Source: Paenibacillus endoradicis (GTDB lineage: Bacteria; Bacillota; Bacilli; Paenibacillales; Paenibacillaceae). Taken from it: a stretch of 64,000 nucleotides of DNA. Positions within the stretch are counted from its first letter, which is position 1; each line of letters starts with the position of its first letter. The stretch is taken from contig NZ_JANQBB010000006.1 of assembly GCF_024721975.1 (NCBI RefSeq), positions 310,001 through 374,000 of the forward strand. The letters run 5' to 3'. The position numbers were made by a program, and so were the translations under genes. The notes under the pieces were generated by a model. It was not told where the DNA came from and did not search any database. It saw only the letters and a program-made list of their open reading frames with translations. Shown piece by piece: positions 13,734-58,742 of this stretch.

Positions 13734-13740
13734 TATTCTT

Positions 13741-30967: not shown

Positions 30968-33529
30968 TTACACTTTAGTAGACACCGTAGCATCTTGAAC
31001 AATAAAATCAACCATTGAATTCACTTCTACTTTACCAGCATAATGACTACCACGATTAAGCGTTGTAAATGTAACTGAGTACGGCTTGCCTGGTATAAGA
31101 TCAAAATAATTATCTGACCATATACCGTCAACTTCCGACGTCAACACAACTTGTTTGGCTAATGCCTTTGATTGCAATGTAACTATCGTTGCGCCACTTT
31201 CCACTGTCTCGACAACTTCAATAAATGGTTGCTGTAGTAGCAGTTTTTGATTTTTCACAAAATAGTATATCATTTGTGCTGCCTCTCCGCTAATCGATGT
31301 CCATGTCGCAGAGACAAATAGTTCGCCTTCCTTGTAACCATTAAGCAATTGCGAGATTGTAAGACGCTTAACAACTTCTGACGTATTTACTGGAAGGGCC
31401 ACCTGAGATTTTTCTTCATACAATATCTCACCTGACATATGGTGCAATTGCACTTGTAATGTTCCACCTTCTGAATGGAGCTTATCAGATACAAGATAAA
31501 TCGCTAATTCTTCACCCTCAACTTGTGCCGATAGTAATACATTCGCAAAACTACGACGTGCATAATAGTTAAGTGCTTTCCAGCGACCATAATAATCAAT
31601 TCCCGCCCAAGAAGCAACAGGCCAACAATCATTCATTTGCCAGTATAGTGAACCCATGCAGTATGGCATTTTTCTGCGATGTGCTTCAATAGCCATTTGC
31701 ATAGCATCTGCTTGTAGGACTTGACTTAGATATAGAAATCCTTTGAAATCAGTAGGTTGTGACATATAAATATCCATATATTCTTTAATGAGACGATTTC
31801 CATCACCATTTTTCTGATGAGCCTTCATTACCTTTGTATCTATTGCAAGATCGCTCTCTTCTGCAAAGCTACGAATAGTACGATACTCAGGGAAGGATTG
31901 GAATCCGTATTCACTCATAAAGCGGCCAAGTTTAATTTGATAGTTTTCAAATGGTTCTACATTATGCCACACACCCCAGTAATGAACATCGCCTTCATTC
32001 GTCAATGGATGTGCATGCTGGGCTTGATCATGGCTAACGGATACAATAGGAGAAGATGGCCAATAATCAATCGTTGCATGCAATTCACCTACAACATCAG
32101 GTAATATTTCATGGAAGATTTTTTCGTAATCTGCCCATATCTTTTCACGAATTGCTGGCTCATACTCTTTCTTCCACCCCCAACCTCCATGTTCATCGTA
32201 ATGAGCCCATGCTGAATCAATTTCATTATTTCCACACCATAGTACGATAGATGGATGATTACGCAGACGCTTCACATTATCTATTGCTTCTGCACGAACA
32301 TTTTGCAAGAACGCTTCATCACCTGGATACATACTACAAGCAAACATAAAGTCTTGCCAAACCATAATGCCATACTCATCACAAAGATCGTAGAATACAT
32401 CTGCTTCGTAGACTCCACCACCCCATATGCGCAACATGTTCATATTGGCTTCTACAGCAGACAAAACCTCTGCACGATAACGATCCTCCGAAACTTCCGA
32501 GATAAAGCTATCGTTAGGAATATGATTAGCGCCCTTAGCAAATACAGCAACTCCGTTAAGCTCAAAGTGGAATGTTGCGCCTGATCCGTTTGCATCTCGA
32601 TCACGAACTAATTTGACAGTTCGTAATCCAGTAGTAACATTGGCAATAGTTGAATACTGTTTCTGTTCGTTCTGCAAAATAACCAATGCTTTAAATTGAT
32701 AGCGATTCGGTTCACCCAGTCCATTACTCCACCATAACTTCGGTTGATCTATTGCGATTGGCACAGTCAAAACATGTTCACCAACTTCGACATCTGTTAC
32801 CAATTCCCAGCTTTTATTATCTGATTGTATTTGTAATTGTAGCGATCCACTTTGTTCTACAGATACCGTTATTTTCGCTGAAAGCTGAGCTGATTGCGCT
32901 GTAACCGATAATTGATCGATGAATAAATCTCTTACGATAACACCAGACCAGCTAATTAATTCAACTTCACGCCAAATCCCACTTGTAACGAAGCGCGGGC
33001 CCCAGTCCCAACCATAATGGTAAGGGGCTTTACGAGTAAAGATACTAAGTTTCTGTTCTCCTAATCCACCTAATTCAGATTGATCATTCGTTGCGGGTAA
33101 AGCATAGCCTAGAGCATGTAATTTCGGCAAATCTTCTTGGATAGGTGAACGGAATAAGATGCGAATATGATTCTCTTCTTTATGCAATAAACCAGTTACA
33201 TCAATTTTCCATGTTCGGAACATATTATCCGCTGAAAGAACTAACTGTTCATTAACGAATACATCTGCATACGTATCCAAACCTTTGAAGTGAAGCTCCT
33301 GACGTTCTTCTTGCAAAAATTCAGCTGATGGCGTGAAATGCGTCTCATATTCCCAGTCGAGTTTATCAATCCATTGTAGATCATGCTCATTAGTAGCATA
33401 GAAAGGATTAGGAATACGATCATTGTGCAATAGATCAGTATGCACACAACCCGGAACCGTAGTAGGTAACCAATCATTATCCTTCACAGATTTGAAACGC
33501 CACGAATTTAATAACATCGTTTGGTTCAT
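30968..33529 (-). CDS. Glycoside hydrolase family 2 beta-mannosidase
   Basis: An 853-residue cytosolic enzyme with the five-domain beta-mannosidase layout. The N-terminal jelly roll (LLNSWRFKSV, VPGCVHTDLL, WEYETHF) is followed by an Ig-like domain, then the catalytic barrel with ANHIPNDSF, WGGGVYEADVFYDLCDEYGI, acid/base Glu in VLWCGNNEIDSAWA and nucleophile Glu in GRFMSEYGFQSFPE. C-terminal Ig-like domains complete it. No signal peptide is present. It should release mannose from the non-reducing end of beta-1,4-mannooligosaccharides. It is the last gene of the mannan operon, 24 bp after the anchored GH26 gene, with GGAGG before the ATG. Confidence 0.96.
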   Translation of the reverse strand: MNQTMLLNSWRFKSVKDNDWLPTTVPGCVHTDLLHNDRIPNPFYATNEHDLQWIDKLDWEYETHFTPSAEFLQEERQELHFKGLDTYADVFVNEQLVLSADNMFRTWKIDVTGLLHKEENHIRILFRSPIQEDLPKLHALGYALPATNDQSELGGLGEQKLSIFTRKAPYHYGWDWGPRFVTSGIWREVELISWSGVIVRDLFIDQLSVTAQSAQLSAKITVSVEQSGSLQLQIQSDNKSWELVTDVEVGEHVLTVPIAIDQPKLWWSNGLGEPNRYQFKALVILQNEQKQYSTIANVTTGLRTVKLVRDRDANGSGATFHFELNGVAVFAKGANHIPNDSFISEVSEDRYRAEVLSAVEANMNMLRIWGGGVYEADVFYDLCDEYGIMVWQDFMFACSMYPGDEAFLQNVRAEAIDNVKRLRNHPSIVLWCGNNEIDSAWAHYDEHGGWGWKKEYEPAIREKIWADYEKIFHEILPDVVGELHATIDYWPSSPIVSVSHDQAQHAHPLTNEGDVHYWGVWHNVEPFENYQIKLGRFMSEYGFQSFPEYRTIRSFAEESDLAIDTKVMKAHQKNGDGNRLIKEYMDIYMSQPTDFKGFLYLSQVLQADAMQMAIEAHRRKMPYCMGSLYWQMNDCWPVASWAGIDYYGRWKALNYYARRSFANVLLSAQVEGEELAIYLVSDKLHSEGGTLQVQLHHMSGEILYEEKSQVALPVNTSEVVKRLTISQLLNGYKEGELFVSATWTSISGEAAQMIYYFVKNQKLLLQQPFIEVVETVESGATIVTLQSKALAKQVVLTSEVDGIWSDNYFDLIPGKPYSVTFTTLNRGSHYAGKVEVNSMVDFIVQDATVSTKV

Positions 33530-33553
33530 GATACAGCCTCCAGTAATTATCTA

Positions 33554-35083
33554 TTATTGTTGTTTAAATGGTAGATCTTCTAGAGTTATTACTCTAGGAT
33601 CATTGTAAACTTTATTCAGGAATTCCTTGCTGTTATGCTTACCATCCATTAGGAAATCACCGTTCCAAGTAATAAACAAACCCCAATTTGCCCCATACTG
33701 CACCATTGCATCAGGATCAGGAATTGATCCATTTTCCATCATAGCAATGTATTTTGTACCTCCTGTTAGCTCGACAAGTTTGTCATAATAAGATGAAATA
33801 GCGCTGTGATCCCCCGCTGCAGGATAGCTGTCATAGCTAACGATATCAACGACATCATCACCAGGATACCAACTTGGATCGACTGAGTTCCATACCCAGA
33901 TAAGATTATTCAATTCATGTACATTAACAAAACGATCATACATGATGCGATACAACTCAATAGCTGCTTCTGCCTCACTTGCTCCCCACCAGAACCAACC
34001 GCCCTCAGCTTCATGTAATGGTCTAAATAGAATTGGTATATCATTAATTTTAAGAATTTTGATCTTCTCGGCAATTACATCCATATCGGAAAGTAACAAC
34101 TGATAGTGCTCACTATTTTTATCTGATAGTGCATCTGCTAAGTTGAACGTAACAGAGTCAGTATAGAAACCTCGCCACCACTCTTTACCAGGTTCATCAA
34201 TTAGACCAGTCGGTGCATTCCAATGCCATAAGAAAGAAACAATTCCCCCTTGCTTATGCCATGCAATAGCAGATTCAACTTCTGATGATCGAGAACCATT
34301 AGCAGCTCTAGTAGGAGAGTATTCAATAAAATCAAAGCCAACAATAGCAGGACGTTTACCTGTCATATTCTCTATATCAATAATATGATTGTAGTTTTGT
34401 TGTCCAGATAATAGATACTTTCCTGCCTGTTCATTCATATAATCCATTAATTGTATTGCTTCTGGTGTAGCATTGGGATTACTTAATTGCTCTGTAAGTG
34501 GAGCTTTCGCTAAGCTTGCTACATCGATACTTTGCAGTGATATGTAGTCGATATCATAATATCCCCATCCTCGATGTATCGATATCGTACTGTCGCCGGA
34601 TTTCAGAAACACACGAGTAGCTTTTACTTCTGTGAATGTTAAACTTTCCTCAAATATCACTTTACCGAACGGATCTTCATTCACATAAAGTTCCGCCTCT
34701 TTGTAACCATTTGCTGCGCGATATCCAACCGTTAATTGATACAATTGATCTTGATCAACATGAACAGGTATGACAAGATGATCATTATCATCGATAAATT
34801 GTGTTACATAGCCTTCACCTGAATATCCTGTAGCAAAAGTAGCCAGTTCGGTACCATTTGTAACCCCCGTTTCCGCCTCGAATTTTAAGATCTGTGTGGT
34901 ATTTACTTTTGGTACCTGATCTACTACATCAACAACTGGTGTTACTACACCACTATCGCTTGGTACTACTTCCTTTACATCAACATGCTGAAGCTGCTTT
35001 GTTACGATGACAAGTATTAACGTCAAGCATAATATCGCAATTAGAACGATCCCTAGTTTCTTCTCATTATTCGGTTGACTCAT
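33554..35083 (-). CDS. Membrane-anchored CBM35-GH26 endo-beta-1,4-mannanase
   Basis: A 509-residue protein. One TM anchor (about residues 10-30) has no signal-peptidase or lipobox motif, so the enzyme should face outward but stay attached. Residues about 65-185 resemble CBM35 (FEAETGVTNGTELATFATGYS ... YDIDYISL). The GH26 domain follows: HWHWNAP-type SFLWHWNAPTGL, acid/base Glu in FRPLHEAEGGWFWWG, and nucleophile Glu in IAMMENGSIPDPD. It should bind and cut mannan or glucomannan at the cell surface. Its ATG overlaps the SGNH gene stop by 4 bp (ATGA), so the two are coupled. Confidence 0.93.
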   Translation of the reverse strand: MSQPNNEKKLGIVLIAILCLTLILVIVTKQLQHVDVKEVVPSDSGVVTPVVDVVDQVPKVNTTQILKFEAETGVTNGTELATFATGYSGEGYVTQFIDDNDHLVIPVHVDQDQLYQLTVGYRAANGYKEAELYVNEDPFGKVIFEESLTFTEVKATRVFLKSGDSTISIHRGWGYYDIDYISLQSIDVASLAKAPLTEQLSNPNATPEAIQLMDYMNEQAGKYLLSGQQNYNHIIDIENMTGKRPAIVGFDFIEYSPTRAANGSRSSEVESAIAWHKQGGIVSFLWHWNAPTGLIDEPGKEWWRGFYTDSVTFNLADALSDKNSEHYQLLLSDMDVIAEKIKILKINDIPILFRPLHEAEGGWFWWGASEAEAAIELYRIMYDRFVNVHELNNLIWVWNSVDPSWYPGDDVVDIVSYDSYPAAGDHSAISSYYDKLVELTGGTKYIAMMENGSIPDPDAMVQYGANWGLFITWNGDFLMDGKHNSKEFLNKVYNDPRVITLEDLPFKQQ

Positions 35084-36189
35084 GTAATGATCCCTACTTT
35101 CCCCAATCGAAAATAAGTTTCTTGATTTTTTTCAGGATCTCGATGTTGCACAACTAACTCAAAATGATGTTCGCCTGGCTGAAGATCATCACCACAATCA
35201 AACAGCCTATACCAGCCACTTACACCTACCCAATCTGGGCAATCACGATTAGATTCAATCCATGCACCACCATCTATTCGATAATGAAATTCTGCAGATT
35301 GATAACCGAAATCGAATGCAAGGACTAACCCTCTCCCTTCAAATACGAAAGTTAGAGAAGCACCTATCTCCGTCGTTTCTAGAACTGTATCCATCCATTC
35401 ATAATCATGCCAGCGTTGTTCTAACCAACGACCATTCGTAACTATTTGTGTGAACGGAAGTTCATAAACTTCTTCCCAGCATTGAGCATCTAAGGGCTGA
35501 ATTAATAAATCATGTTGGAATGCATGGTTGTTTACATTGGATATTCTGTCATTACGTTGAAGTTGCTTTTGCAAAAATGAAATGACGCACTCTGCATATA
35601 TACTGCTACCAATTTTTAATGGATGAATACCATCAGGTAGCCATTCTTCCATTGATAATCTACCTGACTTAACTTGATCTAGTCCGTACTTCCCTACCCA
35701 AATTGATGGTAAATGATAATGATTAGCTAACTGTTCAAACTCTATTATTGATGGAGGATATAAACCATTTACCATTGGATCTAGCATCGTATCACAGAAT
35801 GTATATACTAGAATTAGATCTCTGGCATCCTCTCGCAGTAGCTTTCTAATTAATCCCTCTCTACTCCGATGACGTTTCACCGTGGGAAGCTCATCATCGT
35901 TGACCGCATACTCGATAAAGACTACATCACATCCACGCTCAATTAAGTCACGTTGAGCTCTAAACACGCCAAAATCACTACCTGTAGCTCCTATTGCCGC
36001 ATTCTCTACCCGAAATCTCACATTAGGATACTGCACTGCTAACCATTGGACTACATATTCTGGCCAATTGGAACGCGACCTACCATCTGTAATAGATCCA
36101 CCTATAAATCCTAGAGTAACCGTACCGGCTGAAATACACTGTTGAAAGACAGTTAATGGTTCTCTCTCTATCCAATACGGAAGTGTCAT
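35080..36189 (-). CDS. SGNH/GDSL-family carbohydrate esterase, probable mannan deacetylase
   Basis: A 369-residue protein without a signal peptide. The N-terminal SGNH hydrolase domain has block I LGFIGGSITDG (Ser), block II ENAAIGATGSDFG (Gly), block III EYAVNDDE (Asn) and block V LPDGIHPLKIG (Asp-His). The last ~130 residues form a beta-rich accessory domain. GGSITxG-type enzymes deacylate sugars; placement between two GH26 mannanases suggests removal of acetyl groups from imported glucomannan oligosaccharides. That role is inference. It overlaps the anchored GH26 start and follows the cytosolic GH26 gene by about 80 bp. Confidence 0.88.
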   Translation of the reverse strand: MTLPYWIEREPLTVFQQCISAGTVTLGFIGGSITDGRSRSNWPEYVVQWLAVQYPNVRFRVENAAIGATGSDFGVFRAQRDLIERGCDVVFIEYAVNDDELPTVKRHRSREGLIRKLLREDARDLILVYTFCDTMLDPMVNGLYPPSIIEFEQLANHYHLPSIWVGKYGLDQVKSGRLSMEEWLPDGIHPLKIGSSIYAECVISFLQKQLQRNDRISNVNNHAFQHDLLIQPLDAQCWEEVYELPFTQIVTNGRWLEQRWHDYEWMDTVLETTEIGASLTFVFEGRGLVLAFDFGYQSAEFHYRIDGGAWIESNRDCPDWVGVSGWYRLFDCGDDLQPGEHHFELVVQHRDPEKNQETYFRLGKVGIIT

Positions 36190-36268
36190 CTCTATATCTC
36201 CTTCAACTATTTATAACCATTCTATTAAGTTTCTTTCGAAAATGAAAAGCGCATCAGTAGTTATCTCT

Positions 36269-37291
36269 TCAGCTTAATATTAAGTTAGGTAATTGCTCTC
36301 TGGTTATAGTTCTAGGATGATTATAAAAGTCAATCAACGCTTGTCGCTGCGTATAAGTTTCACTGTAGCGAATATGATCACCTTGTCGTTTATATACAAA
36401 TTCCCCATACCATGTGCAGTTCCACAGCCATAATGCATCATCTTTCATCATTTCTGAAACTGCTGGAATAACTCCATTTTCTGATAGTGTAATTATTTTA
36501 TTACCTTTTGAATAAGAGCGAGCTTGTAAGAAACGATCTAATTGAGCGCTGTAGTCATGTTTTTCTGCATAGATATCTTCGCCAATAATATCTACATACT
36601 CATCTCCAGGATACCAATCATCATGCTGTCCATTCCATACCCAGATTAGATTATTCAAGCCATAATAATCCGTTAGACGATGGTACATATATTTCCATAG
36701 TTCCACACATGGTGCTGCTCCTTGAGCACCCCACCAAAACCATTCACCCGATGCTTCATGCAGTGGACGCCATAATACAGGAACATCTTCCGCTTGAAGA
36801 CGTAATAATTGCTGGGCTATCGCATCAATATCTCTTACCATTAATTGAAATAATTCAGATTCTTTGTCTGCCATTGCTTCGGCAAAATTGAAGGTTGTTG
36901 CTTCAGTATAAAAACCACGATCCCAGCTACGTTCAGGTGGTATATCAATTAAGCCAACTGGAGCATTCCAATGCCAACAAAAAGTTACGATACCGCCATC
37001 TTTCCACCACTGAATCGCAATATCCGTATCTTCGCAGGTTGAACCACGCTCAACCCGTGAAGGAGTGTAATTCATAAAATCAAATCCATATACCGCGGGA
37101 TACTTTCCAGTTGTTTCGCGAATAACCTCTATCTCAGGATGACCAATTACACCGATCTGCTGTCCAGAAAGTACTTTTTCACCATAAATACTGCAGAGAT
37201 ATTCCATTAATCGCCTTGCCGAAACAGAAGCCTTTTCATTAATAAGAGTAGGCTGTACATCATAATGCGGTAATTTATTTCTAGTATTCAT
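36269..37291 (-). CDS. Cytosolic glycoside hydrolase family 26 mannanase
   Basis: A 340-residue single-domain GH26 enzyme without signal peptide. It parallels the anchored enzyme: VLSGQQIGVIGH, VYGFDFMNYTPSR, TFCWHWNAPVGL, acid/base Glu in WRPLHEASGEWFWWG and nucleophile Glu in ITLSENGVIP. A cytosolic GH26 would shorten imported mannooligosaccharides, perhaps as an exo-acting mannobiohydrolase; mode of action cannot be read from the sequence. I place the start at 37291 (MNTRNK), 7 nt after GGGAG. The ribosome site is part of the AAAAGTTTTRGGAGG hairpin leader (37304-37342). Confidence 0.9.
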   Translation of the reverse strand: MNTRNKLPHYDVQPTLINEKASVSARRLMEYLCSIYGEKVLSGQQIGVIGHPEIEVIRETTGKYPAVYGFDFMNYTPSRVERGSTCEDTDIAIQWWKDGGIVTFCWHWNAPVGLIDIPPERSWDRGFYTEATTFNFAEAMADKESELFQLMVRDIDAIAQQLLRLQAEDVPVLWRPLHEASGEWFWWGAQGAAPCVELWKYMYHRLTDYYGLNNLIWVWNGQHDDWYPGDEYVDIIGEDIYAEKHDYSAQLDRFLQARSYSKGNKIITLSENGVIPAVSEMMKDDALWLWNCTWYGEFVYKRQGDHIRYSETYTQRQALIDFYNHPRTITREQLPNLILS

Positions 37292-37303
37292 ACCATCTCT
37301 CCC

Positions 37304-37342
37304 AAAACTTTTCATCGTTTAAATGAAAAGTTGCATCGTAAG
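37304..37342 (-). promoter_or_regulatory. Hairpin 5' leader of the cytosolic GH26 gene (AAAAGTTTTAGGAGG family)
   Basis: AACTTTTCAT and ATGAAAAGTT (37306-37315 with 37323-37332) form a stem with a 7-base loop just before GGGAG. It lies in the middle of the operon, in the 70-bp gap after the permease gene. Confidence 0.7.
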
Positions 37343-37360
37343 TGTAAAATTAGGAACAAA

Positions 37361-38353
37361 TTACCCAACAATACCGCTTCTTTCAATACTTTCAACGAAG
37401 TATCTTTGTACAACCAGATATAATGCTAACAATGGTAGAATCGCAAGTAATATCCCTGTATCTATAATCATTGCCACATGATTCTGATCAGCTTTAAAAT
37501 TGGAACTAGGTGAGTATCCCATTAATACAGGTATAAATTGATTCGCTTGAGACGGTAATGTTGCTACTTTCAAAGACATTAATTCCATACCATTCATAAA
37601 CAATGTCGTATAAAATGTATCATTGTACTGCCATACAAAGCAGAACAATACGACCGTAATAATTGGTGGAATCGCATTAGGTAGCATAATTTGGAAAAAG
37701 GTTTGTATTCCACCAGCCCCATCAATAAGTGAAGCTTCCTCAATTTCCTTTGGTAAACCTTTGAAAAATTGACGGAAGATATAGATGAATAGTCCTGCCT
37801 TTAAGCCGATAGCGGTAGCTGAAGTAATAACTGATGGCCAATAACTATTCAACAGATTAATACCTGGTTTTCCAGAAAACAATTCAACAATTCCAAAAAT
37901 ATCAAAGTTTTTGAAATGTAAGTAATAAGGAAGCATTAGTGTTGTTGTTGGAACAAGTATCGTTACAATAACAAGTCCGAATAATATTCCATTACCAGGA
38001 AAATTAAACCTAGCAAACCCGTATCCTGCTAATGCACAACTAGCTACGGTACATAAGGTTGTTATAATTACAAAAACTAATGTTTTCCCTAACATTGGGA
38101 AGTAATCAAGAATTCCCATCGCTAACGTAATATTTTCCCAAGTAAAATTTACAGGTACCATATAAATGGTAGGATTATAAATATCTACTTTATCCTTAAA
38201 GGCAACGGCAATCTTCTGTAATATTGGATAGATAATGATGAATGATATACCTGTAATAAGTAAAGTACGAAATGCTACATAAAGTAGATCAAATACTTTT
38301 TGTAATAGCCGTTGATTACGATAATATCGTTCATCTGTATTTTCTTTGCTCAT
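37361..38353 (-). CDS. Sugar ABC transporter permease, MalG/MsmG type (second pair)
   Basis: A 330-residue permease with six predicted helices. The BPD_transp_1 EAA loop EIEEASLIDGAGGIQTFFQIMLP, for binding the ATPase, lies in the C-terminal half. The start at 38353 (MSKENT) has GGAG 10 nt upstream; a GTG three codons earlier sits on the ribosome site. It partners with the MalF-type permease encoded just upstream to form the second of two channels in the mannan locus. No ATPase gene is present, so a shared MsmX/UgpC-type ATPase must serve it. Confidence 0.9.
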   Translation of the reverse strand: MSKENTDERYYRNQRLLQKVFDLLYVAFRTLLITGISFIIIYPILQKIAVAFKDKVDIYNPTIYMVPVNFTWENITLAMGILDYFPMLGKTLVFVIITTLCTVASCALAGYGFARFNFPGNGILFGLVIVTILVPTTTLMLPYYLHFKNFDIFGIVELFSGKPGINLLNSYWPSVITSATAIGLKAGLFIYIFRQFFKGLPKEIEEASLIDGAGGIQTFFQIMLPNAIPPIITVVLFCFVWQYNDTFYTTLFMNGMELMSLKVATLPSQANQFIPVLMGYSPSSNFKADQNHVAMIIDTGILLAILPLLALYLVVQRYFVESIERSGIVG

Positions 38354-38388
38354 TACGACCACGCTCCTTTCATCGCTTTAAAGTATGA

Positions 38389-41858: not shown

Positions 41859-41872
41859 GGTTGCCTCCCCCT

Positions 41873-42493
41873 TTACGTTCGGAACAGCATTTCACGGTAT
41901 ACGTTATAAATAAAATCATAAATTTGTTGAACCATACTTAATACAAGTGCACCAAGGAATACAATAATCCCCATTACTATGATCGTAAGACCGATTGTAA
42001 TAATTGTTTTCAAGACAGTGTATTGATGCACGGTCATTATTCCAATAAAGAGCAGCCATATGAACCACAATGATGCAATCGAAATAAGTAAGTAGTAGAA
42101 GGCGATCTCCTCTTCTGCCATAAACCGACTAATAAAAGTCATTGGTAGATAAACAAGAATAATTGGAGTCAACGAGTATCCTGTCGCTTTTACAATTTCA
42201 AGAAATTTCCCTTCACCACCCATTAGCGTTGTAATGGACCAGTTGGCAACACACCATAGTAGAAATGGTAAGATTACGGTAACGATATCCATAATACTAT
42301 TGAGTGTACGTGGATCAGAATAGTTAACAAGAAATCCTGCATATTTCTTCTGTAAAATGATAGCAAGAATCGTTAAGAAAATAAGAGTGTAGACAACTTT
42401 CAACTTACCTTTGTTTTCGTACTTCAGATCCCAGAAACTATCGAACGGCTTGAAGATAACTTGTAATGGGAAGTTGATGAAATCTTGCTTCAT
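41873..42493 (-). CDS. YIP1-family membrane protein
   Basis: A 206-residue protein with five predicted membrane helices. The pattern (FPLQVIFKPFDSFWDLKYENKG at the N-terminus, then LLWCVANWSITTLMGGEGKF and LTPIILVYLPMTFISRFM) fits the Yip1 domain (PF04893). Its function in bacteria is unknown; eukaryotic Yip1 acts in vesicle trafficking and is no guide here. The ATG overlaps the NHL/TPR stop by 4 bp, so the two are made together and may form a membrane complex with DUF5696. Confidence 0.85.
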   Translation of the reverse strand: MKQDFINFPLQVIFKPFDSFWDLKYENKGKLKVVYTLIFLTILAIILQKKYAGFLVNYSDPRTLNSIMDIVTVILPFLLWCVANWSITTLMGGEGKFLEIVKATGYSLTPIILVYLPMTFISRFMAEEEIAFYYLLISIASLWFIWLLFIGIMTVHQYTVLKTIITIGLTIIVMGIIVFLGALVLSMVQQIYDFIYNVYREMLFRT

Positions 42494-43974: not shown

Positions 43975-43984
43975 AGTTACCCTC

Positions 43985-44857
43985 CTATTCCTTCATACCT
44001 GATGATGCCATCGTTTCAATGATCTTACTTTGTGAGAAGACGAATAGCGTAATGGGTACACTCATAAGGATTAGTGCCACCGCTGCTGCTGCACCTGCCC
44101 TAGCAATCCCCCCATAAATGATTTGGTTTGCTGCAAAGTGAAGACTTTTCAGTTGTTCACTGTAAATAAAACCATTGCCATCACTACCCCATAAAATTTG
44201 GAATTGTAAGATGATTAACGTTAACCAAGCAGGCTTCACATTCGGCATAACAATCGTCCAAAAAATACGATATTCACTTGCTCCATCAATTTTTGCAGAT
44301 TCTAACAGTGCATCTGGCATTTGCTCCATAAATTGCTTCATTAGATATAGTCCGAGTGAATATGCGAATGCAGGGATGATTACTGCCCAATAAGAATCAA
44401 TAAGGCCAAGCCAGCTCATTACCATGTAATTCGGAATTGCTGTAACTGCTGGTGTAAACATTAAAGATAAAACAACAATTTGAAACAAGATTTTTTTACC
44501 CGGGAAGCGATGTTTTGCTAGCGGATATGCTGCCGCCGAAGCAAAAATAACATGTCCTACAACACCCATTAATGTAATGAATACCGTATTAAAGATATAA
44601 CGACTGAACGGGACCCAAGATTCTCCCAGTAGGTTAAGTAAGTCGCTAAAGTTATTAAAGGTCGGATTACGTACGAACAAAGTCGGTGGGAACAGAAATA
44701 TTTCATCTAATGGCTTAAATGCATTATTAACCGCATATACCAAAGGCAAAATCATAAATGCTCCAAAGAAGGCTAGTATTGTAAACAAGCTAAAGCTTCC
44801 CCAGAACGAGCGATTTACCCTTTTTGTACGTAGTTTAAAGGAGAAGGGCATGCTCAT
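43985..44857 (-). CDS. Sugar ABC transporter permease, MalG type (first pair)
   Basis: A 290-residue permease with six predicted helices and the EAA loop LLESAKIDGASEYRIFWTIVMPN. The ATG overlaps the preceding permease stop by 4 bp. It forms the first permease pair with that protein, next to the giant substrate-binding protein. No ATPase gene is in the locus. Confidence 0.92.
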   Translation of the reverse strand: MSMPFSFKLRTKRVNRSFWGSFSLFTILAFFGAFMILPLVYAVNNAFKPLDEIFLFPPTLFVRNPTFNNFSDLLNLLGESWVPFSRYIFNTVFITLMGVVGHVIFASAAAYPLAKHRFPGKKILFQIVVLSLMFTPAVTAIPNYMVMSWLGLIDSYWAVIIPAFAYSLGLYLMKQFMEQMPDALLESAKIDGASEYRIFWTIVMPNVKPAWLTLIILQFQILWGSDGNGFIYSEQLKSLHFAANQIIYGGIARAGAAAAVALILMSVPITLFVFSQSKIIETMASSGMKE

Positions 44858-45759
44858 TCACCTACCTTACGTAATAATTTTTGTACGATGAGGTTAGTAC
44901 CTAGCATAATGATAAACAGTACGGTAGCAATTGACGAAGCATACCCCATCTCAAATCGAGTTGTACCGTAATCAATCAAATGGGTAACGATCGTTTCTGC
45001 TGCATAGTTCACACTTGGGAACCCAGCTAACGCTATCGATACTTCGGCGACGGCCAGTGAGGTTGTTAACTGGATAACCGCACCAAACATTAATTGTGGA
45101 CGCATCGAAGGTAGAGTAATGTACCATAACTCTTGCCAACGATTACGAATTCCATCAACTGCACCCGCCTCATAAAGCGTACGATCTACCGTCTGTAGAC
45201 CTGCAATAAATGCTAGGAAACCTGTTCCCAGTGACAACCATAATTGGACAATAATAATAATAGGTAAAATATATTCTTCCTTCTTCAACCATTGAATAGG
45301 CTCCAATAGTATGCCAACTTTAATAAGAAAACCGTTAGCTATACCGTAGCGATCACCTGAAAAGATCATTAACCAGATGAAAAATACATTACCTGAAATC
45401 GATGGTGCATAGAATACCAGCGTCATTAATGCTCGCAGCTTCGGAGATAACTCATTAATAATCCAAGCGAATACGAAGCAGGCGATGTAACTTATAGGAC
45501 CCGTAATCACTGCAAATAATATTGTATTTTTGATTGCAACTAAGAAAATGTCATCCTCTAAAAATAGTCTGGAATAATTATGCCACCCAACAAATTTAGG
45601 GAATTCTAGCATATTGAAATACGTAAAGCTTAGGATCATCGAAATCATAACAGGTAGAATTGTAAATATTGCGAATAAAATCATATACGGTGCTAGAAGG
45701 ATATATGATTGTTTGTTCTGTTTCATTGCTTGCCATTTCAAGCTCCACCAGTTGGACAT
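44854..45759 (-). CDS. Sugar ABC transporter permease, MalF type (first pair)
   Basis: A 301-residue permease with six predicted helices. The EAA region TLYEAGAVDGIRNRWQELWY is present (Ala-Gly variant), as are FTILPVMISMILSFTYFN at the N-terminus and FYAPSISGNVFFIWLM. AAGGAGGGG lies before the ATG, 15 bp after the giant SBP gene. It pairs with the overlapping MalG-type gene. Confidence 0.92.
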   Translation of the reverse strand: MSNWWSLKWQAMKQNKQSYILLAPYMILFAIFTILPVMISMILSFTYFNMLEFPKFVGWHNYSRLFLEDDIFLVAIKNTILFAVITGPISYIACFVFAWIINELSPKLRALMTLVFYAPSISGNVFFIWLMIFSGDRYGIANGFLIKVGILLEPIQWLKKEEYILPIIIIVQLWLSLGTGFLAFIAGLQTVDRTLYEAGAVDGIRNRWQELWYITLPSMRPQLMFGAVIQLTTSLAVAEVSIALAGFPSVNYAAETIVTHLIDYGTTRFEMGYASSIATVLFIIMLGTNLIVQKLLRKVGE

Positions 45760-45774
45760 GCTGTTCTCCCCTCC

Positions 45775-48699
45775 TTATTGTGGCAATCCAAACTCTTCTC
45801 GTTTATTATCAATCTCATCTTGAATGTAACCGGTATAGTCCATTAAAGCTTCTCTAGCTTCTATTTGACCGATAACCGTTTTGTAGAATGCATTAAATAG
45901 ATGACGACCAGTAAAGTATCCGCCCGGTACTTCCGGAATTCCTACCACGTATTGGAATTGCTCTTTCAATTGCTTATAATCTGCAACTGGCCAAGGCAAA
46001 CTATCAAGCGCATTAATGTTAGCGGTAGGGTAACGAGCTGCTGCTCCCATTAATCCTTCCATTTCACGTCCGAATTTCGCTTGCGTTTCGTCACTAGTCC
46101 ACCATTTCATAAATTGCCATGCTGCTTCTTTGTCCTCTGCTTTTTCAAGCATCATTACAGAAGAACCACCACTTGGTACTTGACGATTAATTGAACCATC
46201 TTCTTGCAATGTACCTGGCATTGGTGCAAACCCCCATAGACCACGAATCTCTGGAGCAAACACTGTCAGCTGATTATAAAGTGTGTAATCTGCAATTCCG
46301 ATTGGCATTTGACCTGTGCGGAAACGGTTTGCAAAATCATACTCACGTTCTAATTTGTAGTCGGTATAATACTCCGTCCATGTCTTAAATGTCTCAATAG
46401 CAAGACGCGAATCAAGATCTGATTCTTTGCCATCGTTTCGATAGAATTGACCACCATTTTGGAATAATAATGCCGCAAAGAGTGAGTTAGGTGGGATGTT
46501 CTGACCTTGTACTGCTGCTTGTTGTACTTGTGGCATTCCAAATTCCATATGATTTTTACTTAGGACCGCAAGTAAAGAAGACACTTCATCCCAAGTCGTT
46601 GGAACTTCTAATCCAAGCTCCTCCAACACATCTTTACGATAGAACAACATATTGAATGTTTGTTGCTCAGGTAGAGCATATACACCATCAGAGTATTGAT
46701 AAGGGACAACTGCGCTTGAACGAAAACGTGTTGCTACCTCGGCGAAATCTTCAAATTGTGTTAGATCAACCGAAGAATTACGCATCGCAAAGTTTACTGG
46801 AATATCATTTTCAATTTGCATCGCAACATCTGGACCTTGCCCCGCTAAAGTTGCCGGTAGTAGCGTATGCATTTGGACAAGTTTCAAGTTAACGTTAATA
46901 CCTGTCTCTGAAGTAAATGTCTCATCGATCATCGCCTTCATCGTATTCGCTTGGTCACGACCACTACCAATCCATACTGTTATCGTTCGTTGATCTGTAG
47001 CATCAGATACATTACCGATACTGTTGTAATCGATAAAGAAGGAATTAGCAAACGTCTTTACTTCATGCGTTGCTTTCGCTATCAAACCTAATCCATCTAC
47101 TTTGATCTTCTCATCTGGTGAAGTTAGTAAAATGGCATCGATCTCAAGTGGATGTTCTCTAGCTTTTTGAACCCATGTGCCAAGACCACCTGTATTCGTC
47201 TTATATTCGTTTAGTTTACGATGAATATTTTCAGGTTTTTCAATCATTTCATTAAGCTGGACAGTCATTGTTTTCAATAATGCTTCTTGATCGCTTGAAC
47301 CATCAGCTAATAGTTTCAATTGAGCTGCAACAGCCGTTAAACGATTTCGCTCTTTAGTTAAATTCTCAATTAAATTAGGAATTTTACTCGTCAGTTGATA
47401 ATCACGATATTCATCAGGCTTCGTACCTGTAATCATGAGAATACTACGATAGGTCGAGTTAAGTTCGTATAAGGAATCTTCAACCTCAGAGATTAGCTCG
47501 GCAAATGGACCGAGTGTAACTTCCATACGAATCGAATGCTTACCCGCTGTGAAATGATATAAGTATGGTTTATCATCTGCTCCTAGTGTCTCCAGACGGT
47601 AGCCACTCTTGTATTTGAATCCTACTGCATTCATTTCTTGGAATGGAACTTGACCATCAATGTAAAGTTTTCTAGTAGAATAGATTCCGCGAACCCAGTT
47701 CTGCTGAGTTACAAACGATAGGTTATATAAACCATCGGTAGGAACATCTACTTCCCATTCCACCCATTGTCCTGGCATGCGCCAGTTAAATCCGCCAATC
47801 GTATTTATTTTAATTAGAGAAGCGCTATATGGTGATACCGCTGCACTAGTACGTTCACTAACTGGATAGAGCGTAGGAGAAGATTTTACAATAGCGGATT
47901 CACCTTCAACTCGAAGCTGCACTCCTGATGTTTCTACAATTCCTGCTTGCTCATATTGTTGCAATAACGTTTCATAGGTTGGCACAACTTGTTGTTGCAT
48001 TAATTTTAATTCTTTCAGTATCATGGGCTCACGAGAAGCTTGGAATGAAAGACTATGTATGCCTTTACTAAAGTAAAATTGGAATGGCTCCGTTATGTAG
48101 CCATTAGAATCTTGAACTAGCTTAGTTGTCCATCGTGGAGCTTCGACTTGCCTAGGGCGTAACTCATTCCCTTGATTATCTACTTTAATTTCGGATAGTT
48201 CGTTATTCCATAATCGATCGAATTGGATAAATTGTGCTTCTTCAAAAGGTACTATGCCATCAATAGCAATAATTCTTTCGATAGATGAACTCTTTCCCTC
48301 TACGGGATAGTAAAGTACTTCTAATTGGTACAGTCCTGCTTGCTTGACCTCAAAATCCCATTGCACTGTTCCTGTCTCACCTGTGTAGAGTGCAGAACCT
48401 TCTATTCCTTCAACCTGTAACACTTCAAACTCAGTACCATTCACATGAGCATATTGGGTTGCGTCAATGACAATCGTTGTGTCAGGTTTTGATGCAGATT
48501 CATGTTCAGAAAGGTATGATGCATAGCTGTTCTCTCCATTTAGAGATGTCGCCAAAAAATCATTAATAGTCGATACTACTTGATTATCTTTACTTGAAAA
48601 CGCATTCACAATAAGGATGATTGTCGTTAATAAGAGCAAACATGCCCCTAACATAACGATCGCTGTAGCCTTATTAGGCTTCCTACGCTGACGGCTCAC
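45775..48699 (-). CDS. Giant membrane-anchored substrate-binding protein with two carbohydrate-binding-like domains
   Basis: A 974-residue protein, over twice the size of a normal SBP. One N-terminal TM (about 12-33) without a lipobox anchors it. Two beta-sandwich regions follow: about 70-235 (VQWDFEVKQAGLYQLEVLYY, IIAIDGIVPFEEAQ) and about 265-400 (WVEWEVDVPTDGLYNLSFV, KLYIDGQVPFQEMNAVGF). A helical linker (405-500) leads to a family 1 SBP domain from about 560 (ITVWIGSGRDQANTMKAMID, GPDVAMQIENDIP, FNMLFYRKDVLEELGLEVP). The GTG at 48699 is preferred, 7 nt after GGAGG; a TTG one codon upstream is possible. It probably captures polysaccharide fragments next to the first permease pair. Confidence 0.88.
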   Translation of the reverse strand: MSRQRRKPNKATAIVMLGACLLLLTTIILIVNAFSSKDNQVVSTINDFLATSLNGENSYASYLSEHESASKPDTTIVIDATQYAHVNGTEFEVLQVEGIEGSALYTGETGTVQWDFEVKQAGLYQLEVLYYPVEGKSSSIERIIAIDGIVPFEEAQFIQFDRLWNNELSEIKVDNQGNELRPRQVEAPRWTTKLVQDSNGYITEPFQFYFSKGIHSLSFQASREPMILKELKLMQQQVVPTYETLLQQYEQAGIVETSGVQLRVEGESAIVKSSPTLYPVSERTSAAVSPYSASLIKINTIGGFNWRMPGQWVEWEVDVPTDGLYNLSFVTQQNWVRGIYSTRKLYIDGQVPFQEMNAVGFKYKSGYRLETLGADDKPYLYHFTAGKHSIRMEVTLGPFAELISEVEDSLYELNSTYRSILMITGTKPDEYRDYQLTSKIPNLIENLTKERNRLTAVAAQLKLLADGSSDQEALLKTMTVQLNEMIEKPENIHRKLNEYKTNTGGLGTWVQKAREHPLEIDAILLTSPDEKIKVDGLGLIAKATHEVKTFANSFFIDYNSIGNVSDATDQRTITVWIGSGRDQANTMKAMIDETFTSETGINVNLKLVQMHTLLPATLAGQGPDVAMQIENDIPVNFAMRNSSVDLTQFEDFAEVATRFRSSAVVPYQYSDGVYALPEQQTFNMLFYRKDVLEELGLEVPTTWDEVSSLLAVLSKNHMEFGMPQVQQAAVQGQNIPPNSLFAALLFQNGGQFYRNDGKESDLDSRLAIETFKTWTEYYTDYKLEREYDFANRFRTGQMPIGIADYTLYNQLTVFAPEIRGLWGFAPMPGTLQEDGSINRQVPSGGSSVMMLEKAEDKEAAWQFMKWWTSDETQAKFGREMEGLMGAAARYPTANINALDSLPWPVADYKQLKEQFQYVVGIPEVPGGYFTGRHLFNAFYKTVIGQIEAREALMDYTGYIQDEIDNKREEFGLPQ

Positions 48700-48748
48700 C
48701 AAGTTTCCTCCTCACTTCCGCTATTGCTATGAACAATTATTGGTATAA

Positions 48749-48780
48749 GAAAAGGGAAGGCATAGTACACTTCCCCTTTT
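48749..48780 (-). terminator. Attenuating terminator after the lipoprotein SBP gene
   Basis: The minus strand has AAAAGGGGAAG, a 10-base loop, CTTCCCTTTTCTT. The T-run is short, so it probably passes part of the RNA polymerase into the rest of the operon and gives the SBP gene a higher transcript level. Confidence 0.6.
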
Positions 48781-48798
48781 CATCATTAGCTATTGCAA

Positions 48799-50148
48799 TT
48801 AATTACCAAGTTTCTTTATCGCAGCTTCTGCTTGCCCTTTATAAGTCTCCGCAGCGGCAGCAGCACTAACTTTATTGACAATAATATCATTAACAAATGC
48901 CCAAGTAGGGAATTCAGGGAAGGCATCATCAAGGGTGATTAAACCAGTACCAGCTATATGATTACGAAGCATATCAACATCATCTTCGAAGCCATATTTC
49001 CCTTCTAAGTAATCTTGACCTGGATAGTCTTCAAGCATTGGTACATCAAATGTTTCTTCGAAGATTTGGTAAACTAGTTTTGAATCTTTAACACCTTTAC
49101 CAATGAACTTTCCAGACGCAGCTGTATTTGCATAAGTATAGTCTGTTGTTTGGCTAGGACCTTTAGGAATTGGCACGATACCGAAATCGAAAGTCAATCC
49201 TCCTAGATTCCATTCAGCTACCGTAAACATTGCTACGTCGCCGTCTTTGAATGTATTAGATTCATTCCAATCCATTGGGTCACCAGTACTTACTTTCACA
49301 ACTTTATCTACATTATATAGTTGGTTCAAGAACTCGCCTGTTTCAATAGATCCTGCACTAGAAAGTCCTTCAACTAAATTTACATCATCAGCGATATTTA
49401 CTCCATTTGATACTGCGAAATGTTTATAAACATCTAAACTCCATCCAGCGAATCCAAATACATCATTTTTACCGTCATTGTTCGTATCCTTTGTTGCTAG
49501 CTTAGCAAGCTCTAGGAATTTATCCCATGTCCACTCACCATTTGCATACAACTCTTTCGGATCTGGAAGACCAAGTTGTTCGAATATTGCACGATTATAG
49601 TGCATACCTGCTCCGATTGATGATGGATTGTCGAATCCATAGTAATCACCAGCAATTGGTGAATACTTAGTTAATAAGTTACCTTCGTTATTAATGTTAC
49701 TAGCGGAATCAGTAAATTCACTAATAGGTTGAATGAGTCCTTGCATAATAAGTGGTAATGCTGCTTTATACTCTAGTTGTACGATATCAGCGAATGGTTC
49801 GCCGCTAAGTACACTATTCGTGAAATTAGCAACCATTTCTTCAAATGGAACGACCACGAATTCGATCTTCACCTTATATTTTTCCTCTACTGCAGCAATT
49901 TTTTCTAATCTGTTAATATCTGATTGTGTTTCACCTAGTGGGGTTTGATCATACCAAGCAGCAATTTTAATGACACGTCCACCAAGATCGTATGTTTCTT
50001 CTGGCTCAGGTGTTGGAGTTGTTTCTTCTACTACTGGAGTTGGTGTTGGAGTTGGTGTAGCATTAGCAGGACTTTTACCACCGCCACAAGCTGTAAGTAC
50101 CATTACTAGACAAAGAAGCAAAAATGAAAACCCTTTCAATTTACGCAT
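48799..50148 (-). CDS. Lipoprotein sugar-binding protein of the mannan locus
   Basis: A 449-residue SBP. The signal peptide ends in the lipobox LTAC, and a Pro/Thr-rich tether (PTPTPTPVVEETTPTPEPEE) follows before the family 1 binding fold (VIKIAAWYDQTPLGETQ, FADIVQLEYKAALPLIMQGL, GAGMHYNRAIFEQLGLPDP). The true start is the ATG at 50148, 7 nt after GGGAGG; the longer ORF has no ribosome site. It is the first gene of the operon, behind promoter, operator-like repeats and a cre-like site. It should deliver mannooligosaccharides to one of the two permease pairs. Confidence 0.93.
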   Translation of the reverse strand: MRKLKGFSFLLLCLVMVLTACGGGKSPANATPTPTPTPVVEETTPTPEPEETYDLGGRVIKIAAWYDQTPLGETQSDINRLEKIAAVEEKYKVKIEFVVVPFEEMVANFTNSVLSGEPFADIVQLEYKAALPLIMQGLIQPISEFTDSASNINNEGNLLTKYSPIAGDYYGFDNPSSIGAGMHYNRAIFEQLGLPDPKELYANGEWTWDKFLELAKLATKDTNNDGKNDVFGFAGWSLDVYKHFAVSNGVNIADDVNLVEGLSSAGSIETGEFLNQLYNVDKVVKVSTGDPMDWNESNTFKDGDVAMFTVAEWNLGGLTFDFGIVPIPKGPSQTTDYTYANTAASGKFIGKGVKDSKLVYQIFEETFDVPMLEDYPGQDYLEGKYGFEDDVDMLRNHIAGTGLITLDDAFPEFPTWAFVNDIIVNKVSAAAAAETYKGQAEAAIKKLGN

Positions 50149-50230
50149 TGTCGAACCTCCCATTTTTATTATGTTTAGGTCACACCAACAAAACTGGACA
50201 AATGATGTAAAATAAATTGTTGCACTCTCG

Positions 50231-50255
50231 CATAACATGTAAACAATTGTTATGA
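50231..50255. promoter_or_regulatory. Operator-like inverted repeat in the mannan operon leader
   Basis: CATAACA and TGTTATG arms flank an 11-bp spacer. The same 7-mer recurs at other sites in the intergenic region, as expected for binding of the divergent LacI regulator. Confidence 0.5.
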
Positions 50256-50265
50256 TTTGTTATTT

Positions 50266-50280
50266 TGTTAGCGCTTCTTT
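50266..50280 (-). promoter_or_regulatory. Cre-like site (CcpA)
   Basis: The minus strand contains AAGCGCTAACA, matching the 3' eleven bases of the catabolite-responsive element TGWAAGCGCTWNCA; the 5' end is degenerate. It lies about 10 bp downstream of the predicted -10 box, a typical roadblock position. Confidence 0.45.
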
Positions 50281-50289
50281 ACATAACAA

Positions 50290-50319
50290 ATATTAACATG
50301 CACATAACAGTTTGGTCAA
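50290..50319 (-). promoter_or_regulatory. Predicted promoter of the mannan operon
   Basis: TTGACC (50314-50319) and TAATAT (50290-50295) with an 18-bp spacer. The spacer contains TGTTATG, the operator-like half site. Confidence 0.65.
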
Positions 50320-50389
50320 TGATATTATCTTTTTTTTCCATAATTATTAATAAACCACATATTTTTTAACAGTTCCACATATAATGACG

Positions 50390-50428
50390 TTGCAAAACAG
50401 TAACTATCATGTTATGTTTGGGATAACA
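50390..50428 (+). promoter_or_regulatory. Predicted promoter of the LacI gene with overlapping operator-like repeat
   Basis: TTGCAA (50390-50395) and TATGTT (50413-50418) are 17 bp apart. The inverted repeat TGTTAT-N7-ATAACA (50410-50428) covers the -10 box, which suggests autoregulation. Confidence 0.55.
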
Positions 50429-50461
50429 AAAATAACAAATAAAGCGAAGTGATATTTTATC

Positions 50462-51499
50462 ATGAGAAATAAAATAACGATACAAGATATAGCTAATGAA
50501 GTTGGGATGTCCAAGTATGCAGTCTCACGAGCTTTATCAGGTAAATCTGGGGTCAGCCCGGAAACAAGACAGTATATTGTTCAAAGTGCTGAACAGTTAG
50601 GTTATTTTAAGGAGAAGCCACTAACGAAATTTTATTCTCCTACTATTGAAATCCCTCTTGATTCTTGGACTGGAACTGGAACCATTCTTGTTCTATTTCC
50701 TAATATTCCATACCAAGATACAGAATCTTTATATTGGGGTCCTCTCTTCAATGGTATATCTACTCGCTTGAATCAAAAAGGAGTTAACATTCTTACATTA
50801 ACCGAACCACCTAACGATTCTATTTTTTCGTTATTGAATCCAGATGCAATTAAAGGCATTGTTACACTTGGTTCAATTTCTACTTCTATATTGCTAGAAA
50901 TACAGAGTCTCAATATACCGATGATCATGGTTGATCACCTGGATTCGAATTTGCAGTGCGATACTGTTTTTTCAGATAACACGATAGCAATGCAACAAAT
51001 TATGCAACAACTAATACACGATGGATATCGTAAGTATCAATTTATTGGAAGAATTAAAGAAGCTCAAAGCTTCAAAGAACGCTGGTTAGCTTATCGTACT
51101 GCTTTAGAAGAACATGATATCGAGCTGAATCAGAATCCAATACTAATCACGCCCACTTTAGAGCATATCCATGATGCAATTCTAGAAGCTGTTCAAAAGG
51201 ATGGGCTCCCTGAAGTATTTGTATGCACGAACGATACTACTGCAATGTTCACTATTGAAGTACTAAATAGCATTGGCTTACAAGTTCCACGTGATTGTAT
51301 CCTTACAGGCTTTGACTATACCTATCCTGAATTACCGTTATATGCAACGGTTAATGTGAACAAAGAGATTATAGGTAGTCGTGCCGTAGATCAATTGTTT
51401 TGGCGTATTATGAATCCAAATCAACCCTATGAACGTAAGTCACTCAGCGCAGATCTTATTTTGAATAAACAATACAGTAAAGCATTACAAAAAACATAA
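50462..51499 (+). CDS. LacI-family regulator of the mannan utilisation locus
   Basis: A 345-residue LacI-type repressor. The helix-turn-helix ITIQDIANEVGMSKYAVSRAL and hinge are at the N-terminus, followed by a periplasmic-binding-like sensor (ILVLFPNIPYQDTESLYWGP, VDHLDSN, YQFIGRI, EVFVCTNDTTAM, ILTGFDYTYPEL). It is divergent from the mannan operon and separated by 313 bp containing promoters and TGTTATG-type repeats, so control of that operon and of its own gene is likely; the inducer would be a mannooligosaccharide. It is paralogous to the partial LacI at 1-275. A strong terminator follows. Confidence 0.93.
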   Translation: MRNKITIQDIANEVGMSKYAVSRALSGKSGVSPETRQYIVQSAEQLGYFKEKPLTKFYSPTIEIPLDSWTGTGTILVLFPNIPYQDTESLYWGPLFNGISTRLNQKGVNILTLTEPPNDSIFSLLNPDAIKGIVTLGSISTSILLEIQSLNIPMIMVDHLDSNLQCDTVFSDNTIAMQQIMQQLIHDGYRKYQFIGRIKEAQSFKERWLAYRTALEEHDIELNQNPILITPTLEHIHDAILEAVQKDGLPEVFVCTNDTTAMFTIEVLNSIGLQVPRDCILTGFDYTYPELPLYATVNVNKEIIGSRAVDQLFWRIMNPNQPYERKSLSADLILNKQYSKALQKT

Positions 51500-58722: not shown

Positions 58723-58742
58723 AGTATTCCCTCCTTCGTTCA

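Follow-up and report, generated by a model that had tools for sequence, protein, structure and literature searches.

A beta-mannan utilisation locus of Paenibacillus endoradicis with one copy of a widespread, probably substrate-adaptable importer module

The locus consists of 14 genes in the window (the entire stretch of 64,000 nucleotides analysed here). Thirteen of these lie on the minus strand (30968-50238) and are likely to form one operon; the remaining gene (50462-51499), on the plus strand, is divergent and encodes a LacI-family regulator recognised by Pfam. The genes, their order, their coordinates and the divergent LacI are as given in the initial annotation, but its count of 14 minus-strand genes has to be corrected to 13, the LacI gene being the fourteenth. 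None of the 7 terminator-like sites from a terminator scan falls between the genes. An inverted repeat downstream of the GH2 gene (30861-30898, minus strand; 17-nt arms, 88% complementary), with a hairpin ending in T5, is a possible terminator, and a second, weaker inverted repeat is located inside the 96-bp gap separating the two genes for solute-binding proteins (SBPs); both are absent from the list produced by the terminator scan. The single promoter of the initial annotation is putative: promoter-like matches show no excess over shuffled sequences (61 in the scan vs 73.8 in shuffles). In the divergent intergenic region (50239-50461), TGTTATG/CATAACA motifs recur and there is a palindrome, AGCGCT, at 50270-50275; judging by sequence, the region is possibly an operator.

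Nine of the minus-strand genes make up a module with the order lipoprotein SBP, 975-aa SBP, permease pair 1, NHL/TPR protein, Yip1, DUF5696 and permease pair 2. The 479-aa solute-binding lipoprotein (SBP_bac_1 in Pfam; 48799-50238) has the arabino-oligosaccharide-binding protein 6rjy as its nearest solved relative by sequence (E 1e-13), shows the lowest mean identity among the nine module genes and is taken to be the substrate-specific SBP of the module. The 975-aa SBP (TTG start; 45775-48702) is assigned by Pfam, AlphaFold2 and Foldseek and carries an N-terminal hydrophobic anchor (helix 12-34) followed by two beta-sandwich domains (about 68-235 and 260-396), a helical region (400-515) and the SBP domain (570-975); the AlphaFold2 model has a pLDDT of 84.5 and its Foldseek matches are SBPs, and the N-terminal part yields sub-threshold Pfam matches only. 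All four permeases, namely MF1 (44854-45759) and MG1 (43985-44857) of pair 1, and MF2 (38389-39288) and MG2 (37361-38362) of pair 2, contain the BPD_transp_1 domain, and the family consensus of each (alignments of 117, 114, 137 and 136 sequences, respectively) includes an EAA-type ATPase-coupling loop. A dead permease pair is therefore ruled out, since the coupling loop is kept in all four proteins.

Three further proteins are encoded between the two permease pairs. The NHL/TPR protein (42490-43974) has a signal peptide and a C-terminal hydrophobic helix, both read off the sequence; the NHL part of its label is backed by Pfam (42.2 bits), but the TPR part is weak, with sub-threshold matches only. 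The Yip1-domain membrane protein (41873-42493) matches PF04893 with 60.8 bits against a cut-off of 28.6, and the DUF5696 protein (39285-41858) consists of an N-terminal hydrophobic helix and a GH129-fold domain. NCBIfam supplied no specific name. The tight packing originally described for this block was reproduced from the coordinates, with distances in the order of transcription of -4 (NHL-Yip1), +14 (Yip1-DUF5696) and -4 (DUF5696-permease). The lack of a local ATPase holds as well: a phmmer search (E<=1) detects no UgpC/MsmX-like ATPase among the window ORFs of at least 60 aa.

The module is followed by four cargo genes, also on the minus strand, which encode a GH26 beta-mannanase-type enzyme (36269-37315; Pfam, 252 bits), an SGNH/GDSL esterase (35080-36189), a CBM35-GH26 protein (33554-35083; Pfam) and a GH2 mannosidase-type enzyme (30968-33529; Pfam Glyco_hydro_2_N2, Ig_mannosidase and Mannosidase_ig). 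The mannan enzyme set initially proposed thus holds for GH2, CBM35-GH26 and GH26, which are well over the Pfam cut-offs, but SGNH, at 32.5 bits, falls just below its cut-off of 32.9; the esterase is possibly a mannan deacetylase.

The architecture of the module is strongly conserved. Of 137 other loci, 86 have the identical nine-gene order and 20 more differ from it only in that the lipoprotein SBP lies at the opposite end, so that the arrangement is far beyond chance. NHL and Yip1 are encoded immediately upstream of DUF5696 in all 135 testable loci of the 137 (L003 and L105 are cut) and, in 53 of the 135, are naturally fused into one polypeptide. MF2 is found immediately downstream of DUF5696 in 135 of 135 loci (L103 and L136 being cut) and MG2 comes next in 134 of 134 (L130 is also cut); gaps do not exceed 302 bp for Yip1-DUF5696 and 53 bp for DUF5696-MF2. 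Hence permeases adjoin the three accessory proteins in every testable locus, in agreement with the original proposal that these proteins belong with the importer. The unusually long permeases of L135 are in fact over-extended ORFs in GC-rich DNA.

Conservation is highest for pair 1 and lowest for the lipoprotein SBP and DUF5696 (identity table of 103 loci, with L028, L088, L109, L117 and L123 omitted for split or cut genes). The module is probably made up of a conserved core, comprising the membrane-anchored long SBP and pair 1, and a substrate-specific unit comprising the lipoprotein SBP, NHL/TPR, Yip1, DUF5696 and pair 2. The long SBP is encoded within the same fetched locus in 117 of the 137 cases, and some NHL-Yip1-DUF5696-pair 2 units have no core beside them; the two halves are thus not a fixed 1:1 cluster. 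Partial Mantel correlations (300 permutations, MF1, MG1 and MG2 regressed out), computed over non-independent locus pairs, are 0.75 for DUF5696-NHL, 0.66 for the long SBP-DUF5696, 0.61 for the lipoprotein SBP-DUF5696, 0.46 for Yip1-MF2 and -0.15 for the lipoprotein SBP-Yip1, a hint that the extracellular parts co-vary. A megablast search for a mobile origin, with window positions 39285-45759 against phages, gave no match. DUF5696 is present on two plasmid records.

Of the 398 Bacillota genomes sampled, 37 (about a tenth) carry the module. Strong matches to DUF5696 (E<1e-100), NHL, Yip1 and the N-terminus of the long SBP fall in the same 37 genomes, which are phylogenetically non-independent; the expected co-occurrence of the accessory families with the transporter is thereby supported. 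Matches elsewhere are contig-end fragments or distant relatives: in two additional genomes with the long SBP the contig edge falls inside MF1, five genomes encode distant relatives of its N-terminal part (E 1e-37 to 1e-50), and a partial NHL relative (E 1e-61) occurs in G249, which lacks Yip1. Given this co-occurrence and the permease adjacency, strong matches to the three subfamilies do not lie mostly apart from transporters. Scoring covered 3-8 candidates per genome, so a module copy could have been missed. Of 12 multi-copy genomes, 5 have more DUF5696 than strong long-SBP matches among the candidates scored (10 vs 4, 10 vs 4 and 8 vs 4, for example), which suggests that a shared core serves several substrate-specific units; the remaining 7 have equal numbers, so the arrangement with a shared core does not apply throughout.

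The initial annotation treated the module as a mannan feature, and this view has to be abandoned. A phmmer search (E<=1e-15) with both GH26 proteins of the window, including the one with CBM35, finds GH26-like genes in 37 of the 137 loci, and elsewhere GH36, GH95, GH30, GH38 or GH42 occurs. Within the identity table, 34 of 103 loci contain a GH26-like gene; 32 of these are among the 48 loci of the largest DUF5696 cluster, and the other two (L097 and L099) belong to a separate small cluster. Of 206 neighbours found, 181 were usable, the remainder running off an end, and 180 of them were scanned (L039:8199-8879, a short overlapping ORF, was omitted); among the families listed (the first 25 of 70 and the first 25 of 86) the neighbouring glycosidases include GH43, GH36, GH95, GH30, GH38 and GH42. 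LacI or AraC regulators also adjoin the module elsewhere, among the families listed. A UgpC/MsmX-like ATPase is encoded in all 19 genomes tested out of the 37, as a single match in 17, among them four genomes, fully scored, that have 8-11 matches to DUF5696. An MsmX-type ATPase lies away from the module in all 19, as had been anticipated, but in G004 two UgpC-like ATPases adjoin module copies, so that the ATPase is not always remote.

For DUF5696, no solved structure was found by plain sequence search and no paper in the literature searched. The predicted structure has the GH129 fold with a TIM barrel, and the profile matches GH129-like structures (E 2e-6). When the catalytic residues of the GH129 reference (as given in the available part of PMC5698469) are mapped by spacing and a weak profile alignment, which is not a residue-level structural alignment, the inferred nucleophile position (window D647) is Asp in 102 of 138 sequences and Tyr, Ser, Asn, Thr or Gln in many of the others, and the inferred acid/base position (N690) is Asn in 131 of 138. 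The GH129 fold is thus there, but the catalytic Asp plus acid/base carboxylate of a GH129 hydrolase is not conserved at these inferred positions, and DUF5696 is therefore probably a pseudo-glycosidase. The alternative of a new glycosidase family whose membrane-bound members are active and trim oligosaccharides there immediately ahead of their import is quite unlikely on the same grounds, even though the fold and the profile relation to GH129 would fit, the window protein itself has Asp at D647, and D655 (131/138) and E752 (136/138) are nearly invariant. Three weak DUF5696 matches that were checked are two DUF6259 proteins and one GH129 protein; an hhalign comparison of A2 with the GH129 protein of L148 aligned the C-terminal domain alone.

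On balance, the locus is probably an operon for the use of beta-mannan, with a single copy of a widely distributed importer module adaptable to different substrates. Oligosaccharides released by the mannanases would be bound and presented by two proteins, the lipoprotein SBP and DUF5696; with its membrane anchor and GH129 fold, the latter would serve as a platform that holds glycans without hydrolysing them. NHL/TPR and Yip1, in many loci fused into a single polypeptide, might keep the extracellular parts on the permeases, much as YknW, a Bacillus Yip1 protein, works with the ABC transporter YknXYZ (available text of PMC4887032), and uptake would proceed through both permease pairs, powered by the genome-wide MsmX-type ATPase. 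Under this model, the module proteins would form a single physical complex, long oligosaccharides would be handed over to the channel, and the two permease pairs would divide the labour. A stronger version, in which all nine proteins are one composite import machine of novel architecture whose ATP-driven shared core (long SBP and pair 1) docks interchangeable substrate units (the lipoprotein SBP, NHL-Yip1 as scaffold, DUF5696 as pseudo-enzyme platform, and pair 2) and draws on one housekeeping ATPase, is offered tentatively and seems rather doubtful. Somewhat unlikely, too, is the arrangement of two CUT1-type importers side by side (the long SBP with pair 1, and the lipoprotein SBP with pair 2) for different product lengths, with NHL, Yip1 and DUF5696 assisting only one. 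Each half has canonical importer parts, down to the coupling loops, and both the units without a local core and the equal numbers in 7 multi-copy genomes, among candidates scored, are compatible with independence of the halves; against it, strong matches to the long SBP and DUF5696 share genomes across the 398 sampled, the two exceptions being cut contigs, and conservation of pair 1 amid varying cargo enzymes would be odd for an independent importer of variable substrates. By far the least probable is a glycan-sensing device, made of the core and NHL-Yip1-DUF5696, that is linked to one importer and uses the remaining permease pair for signalling rather than uptake: SBP-based sensing is reported in clostridia (CuaD of Ruminiclostridium cellulolyticum, in the part of PMC10384115 available) and regulator genes adjoin the module here and elsewhere, but pair 1 keeps its ATPase-coupling loops and the conserved set includes no kinase or dedicated signalling protein.

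No description of the nine-gene module was found in the open-access literature searched, and it may represent a type of glycan importer not described before. The module provides the DUF5696 family with a firm functional setting and predicts an importer role for a bacterial Yip1 protein; given its presence in 37 of 398 genomes next to many glycan enzymes, any mechanism established for it would apply generally. With CUT1/MalFGK2-type importers served by an orphan MsmX/MsmK, it shares extracellular SBP_bac proteins (two), MalF/MalG-type permeases with EAA loops, the lack of a local ATPase and, in relatives, an MsmX-type ATPase encoded at a distance from the module; it differs in having two permease pairs, two dissimilar SBPs, three conserved accessory proteins and, in the 975-aa SBP, about 560 additional N-terminal residues. 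A published orphan-ATPase case is MsmK of Anaerocellum bescii (PMC12838199, as far as its available text goes). In YknWXYZ, too, a Yip1-family membrane protein works alongside an ABC transporter and an extracellular partner but, according to the portion of PMC4887032 available, that system belongs to the MacB-type exporters and includes a membrane fusion protein, whereas the present locus is of the importer type and has an NHL/TPR partner; Pfam domains of MacB-type permeases or membrane fusion proteins were not detected among the 14 genes (E<=0.001). GH129 and GH129-like glycosidases (NagBb, ZGAL_3152) have the same beta-sandwich, TIM barrel and C-terminal beta domain in the same order and fold; in contrast to these, DUF5696 has an N-terminal membrane anchor, lacks conservation at the inferred catalytic positions and adjoins permease genes in all testable loci.

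In the SusCD-type PULs of Bacteroidota, surface glycan binding and uptake are linked to hydrolase cargo, a task to which that of the present locus is analogous; to our knowledge, the uptake of large plant-glycan fragments by Gram-positive bacteria is far less understood than the SusCD route of Bacteroidota. No Pfam domain of the SusC TonB-dependent transporter or of SusD is present among the 14 genes (E<=0.001), and the locus relies on ABC permeases instead of a TonB-dependent channel. If the nine proteins do form a composite machine, it would be a modular Gram-positive equivalent of SusCD, with a single core able to serve several glycan-specific units.

The locus consists of 13 tightly spaced minus-strand genes (30968-50238) and a divergent LacI gene (50462-51499), not fourteen minus-strand genes as in the initial annotation, whose coordinates and gene overlaps agree with the gene calls and the gap table. 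In transcription order, the products are a lipoprotein solute-binding protein (SBPs), a larger membrane-anchored one of 975 aa (SBPL), the first permease pair (MF1, MG1), NHL/TPR, Yip1 and DUF5696 proteins, the second permease pair (MF2, MG2), and the GH26, SGNH, CBM35-GH26 and GH2 enzymes. The successive gaps are 96, 15, -4, 10, -4, 14, -4, 26, 45, 79, -4 and 24 bp. The genes may share a single transcript. An inverted repeat (48749-48781) lies within the 96-bp SBPs-SBPL gap and possibly lowers read-through or stabilises the SBPs message. A nearby minus-strand cluster (56047-62316) encodes a FecR-domain protein, an NHL/copper-amine-oxidase-N protein and a CHASE2-cyclase protein.

The order of the module genes is highly conserved. 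A profile search of genomes with the DUF5696 alignment gave 524 relatives, of which the best 80 loci were kept; among these, the nearest named one, whose DUF5696 is 86% identical, belongs to Candidatus Paenibacillus intestinavium, and the host is accordingly regarded as Paenibacillus-like. Together with two loci from plasmid records carrying DUF5696 and 55 regions with strong DUF5696 matches in the Bacillota sample (with up to three scored candidates for each genome and the centre genome G004 excluded), 137 loci were compared using HMMs of the nine window genes, an order tally and a gap check. NHL and Yip1 lie directly upstream of DUF5696 in all 135 loci where the contig permits (L003, which nonetheless retains Yip1, and L105 are cut), and are a single polypeptide in 53 of these 135. 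MF2 directly follows DUF5696 in 135/135 loci (L103 and L136 are cut) and is followed by MG2 in 134/134 (L130 is cut as well). Across the 137 loci, the Yip1-DUF5696 gap never exceeds 302 bp, and the DUF5696-MF2 gap 53 bp. The complete order is found in 86 loci, 68 with separate and 18 with fused NHL and Yip1; 20 further loci differ in having the lipoprotein SBP at the opposite end. For 117 of the 137, the fetched stretch also includes SBPL.

The link to the importer made in the initial annotation would have been refuted had the NHL/TPR, Yip1 and DUF5696 families occurred mostly apart from transporters; instead, strong matches to all three co-occur with SBPL in 37 of 398 Bacillota genomes. These are the genomes with DUF5696 at E<1e-100; two others above the Pfam cut-off were rejected, their proteins being a DUF6259 and a GH129 member. 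The same 37 contain strong matches to the NHL subfamily, to the Yip1 subfamily (E<=2e-49) and to the SBPL N-terminal part, the last being a contig-edge fragment in G109 (E 2e-48). Outside this set, the SBPL N-terminus is also strong in G110 and G160, on contigs of 3.8 and 4.3 kb that end inside MF1, and distant relatives (E 1e-37 to 1e-50; 327-544 aa) are found in five genomes (G013, G060, G099, G133 and G163; L140-L144), the one scanned against Pfam, L141, lacking an SBP domain. The sole outside NHL match below E 1e-60 is a partial relative in G249 (L150, G249:C103:7682-8536; E 1e-61) at a contig end, with no Yip1 after it; three other genomes have matches at 1e-21 to 1e-23. Yip1 matches in 14 other genomes are weak (best 5e-10). 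Because 3-8 candidates were scored per genome and the genomes are partly related, so that the counts are non-independent, no probability is attached to this overlap.

Within the module, a putative core of SBPL and pair 1 can be distinguished from a unit comprising the other genes. At DUF5696 identities of 35-42% (103 loci), mean identities are 30% for SBPs, 44% for NHL, 49% for SBPL, 51% for MG2 and MF2, 53% for Yip1, 66% for MG1 and 69% for MF1; thus, pair 1 is the most conserved, and SBPs and DUF5696 the most variable. In five of 12 genomes with at least two DUF5696 matches, these outnumber the strong matches to SBPL (G068, 10 vs 4; G141, 10 including one fragment vs 4; G171, 8 vs 4; G046, 11 including four fragments vs 6; G088, 20 including five fragments vs 7), and several of their units have no local core; the numbers are equal in the other seven (G004, G072, G107, G296, G341, G348 and G382). 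A single core may therefore serve several units in the five genomes with excess DUF5696. Small secreted-looking proteins resembling the SBPL beta-sandwich domain are encoded in some core-less units and adjoin DUF5696 units in G171:C3, G141:C118, G068:C11 and G107:C77 (L128:11803-12342 and 13357-13995); the two L128 proteins examined have a CBM-like beta-sandwich weakly related to the second SBPL domain.

The neighbourhoods point to diverse substrates. Genes neighbouring the module were collected from 97 loci (dereplicated among those with the complete nine-gene set), and the scan covered 180 of the 181 that were usable. The families listed for 93 neighbours include GH26 (20), the GH2 N-terminal domain (9), GH9 (4), GH113 (3) and GH30 (3), and those listed for 87 include GH10, GH43 and GH42 (3 each), and GH38, apiosidase and ABC ATPase (2 each). 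GH36, GH95, GH30, GH38 and GH42 genes adjoin L051, L056, L060, L064 and L094/L095, respectively. A GH26-like gene is present in 34 of the 103 identity-table loci, 32 of them within the largest DUF5696 cluster. The module in the window is therefore the mannan-associated form of a device of general use. A module copy on a P. cellulosilyticus plasmid (L002) lies, with its own UgpC ATPase, amid LLM-class flavin oxidoreductases, not glycosidases; this copy may accordingly have a substrate other than a polysaccharide.

All four permeases retain an EAA-type loop in the alignment consensus (MF1, E-A-G-A-x-D-G; MG1, E-A-A-K-I-D-G-A; MF2, E-x-A-K-x-E-G-A-T; MG2, E-E-A-A-x-x-D-G-A-G), and accordingly neither pair looks dead. 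No UgpC/MsmX-like ATPase was found in the window. In relatives, one is encoded elsewhere: all 19 tested of the 37 module-bearing genomes have a match at E<1e-100, a single one in 17 (105 candidates scored in six large genomes), and the four genomes with 8-11 DUF5696 matches, all fully scored, each have one ATPase, whose contig lacks DUF5696. Two cases speak against an ATPase that is always remote: G004, where two of four matches adjoin SBPL copies, and L002, the only one of 137 loci with such a gene within reach of the module.

DUF5696 was not found in the open-access literature (5.39 million papers; a description in subscription papers or bioRxiv preprints may exist), and no description of the module appeared among the listed matches to NHL, Yip1, permease, SBP and mannan in open-access titles and abstract starts. 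Two transporter papers (PMC4765114, PMC12838199) do not mention Yip1 or NHL. DUF5696 has a predicted GH129 fold and might be a platform that holds the glycan. The module proteins may form one physical complex, and the two permease pairs could divide labour. As for known systems, several importers of Anaerocellum bescii are powered by MsmK, according to PMC12838199, and YknW, a Yip1 protein that works with the YknXYZ transporter (PMC4887032), offers a possible precedent for the Yip1 component.
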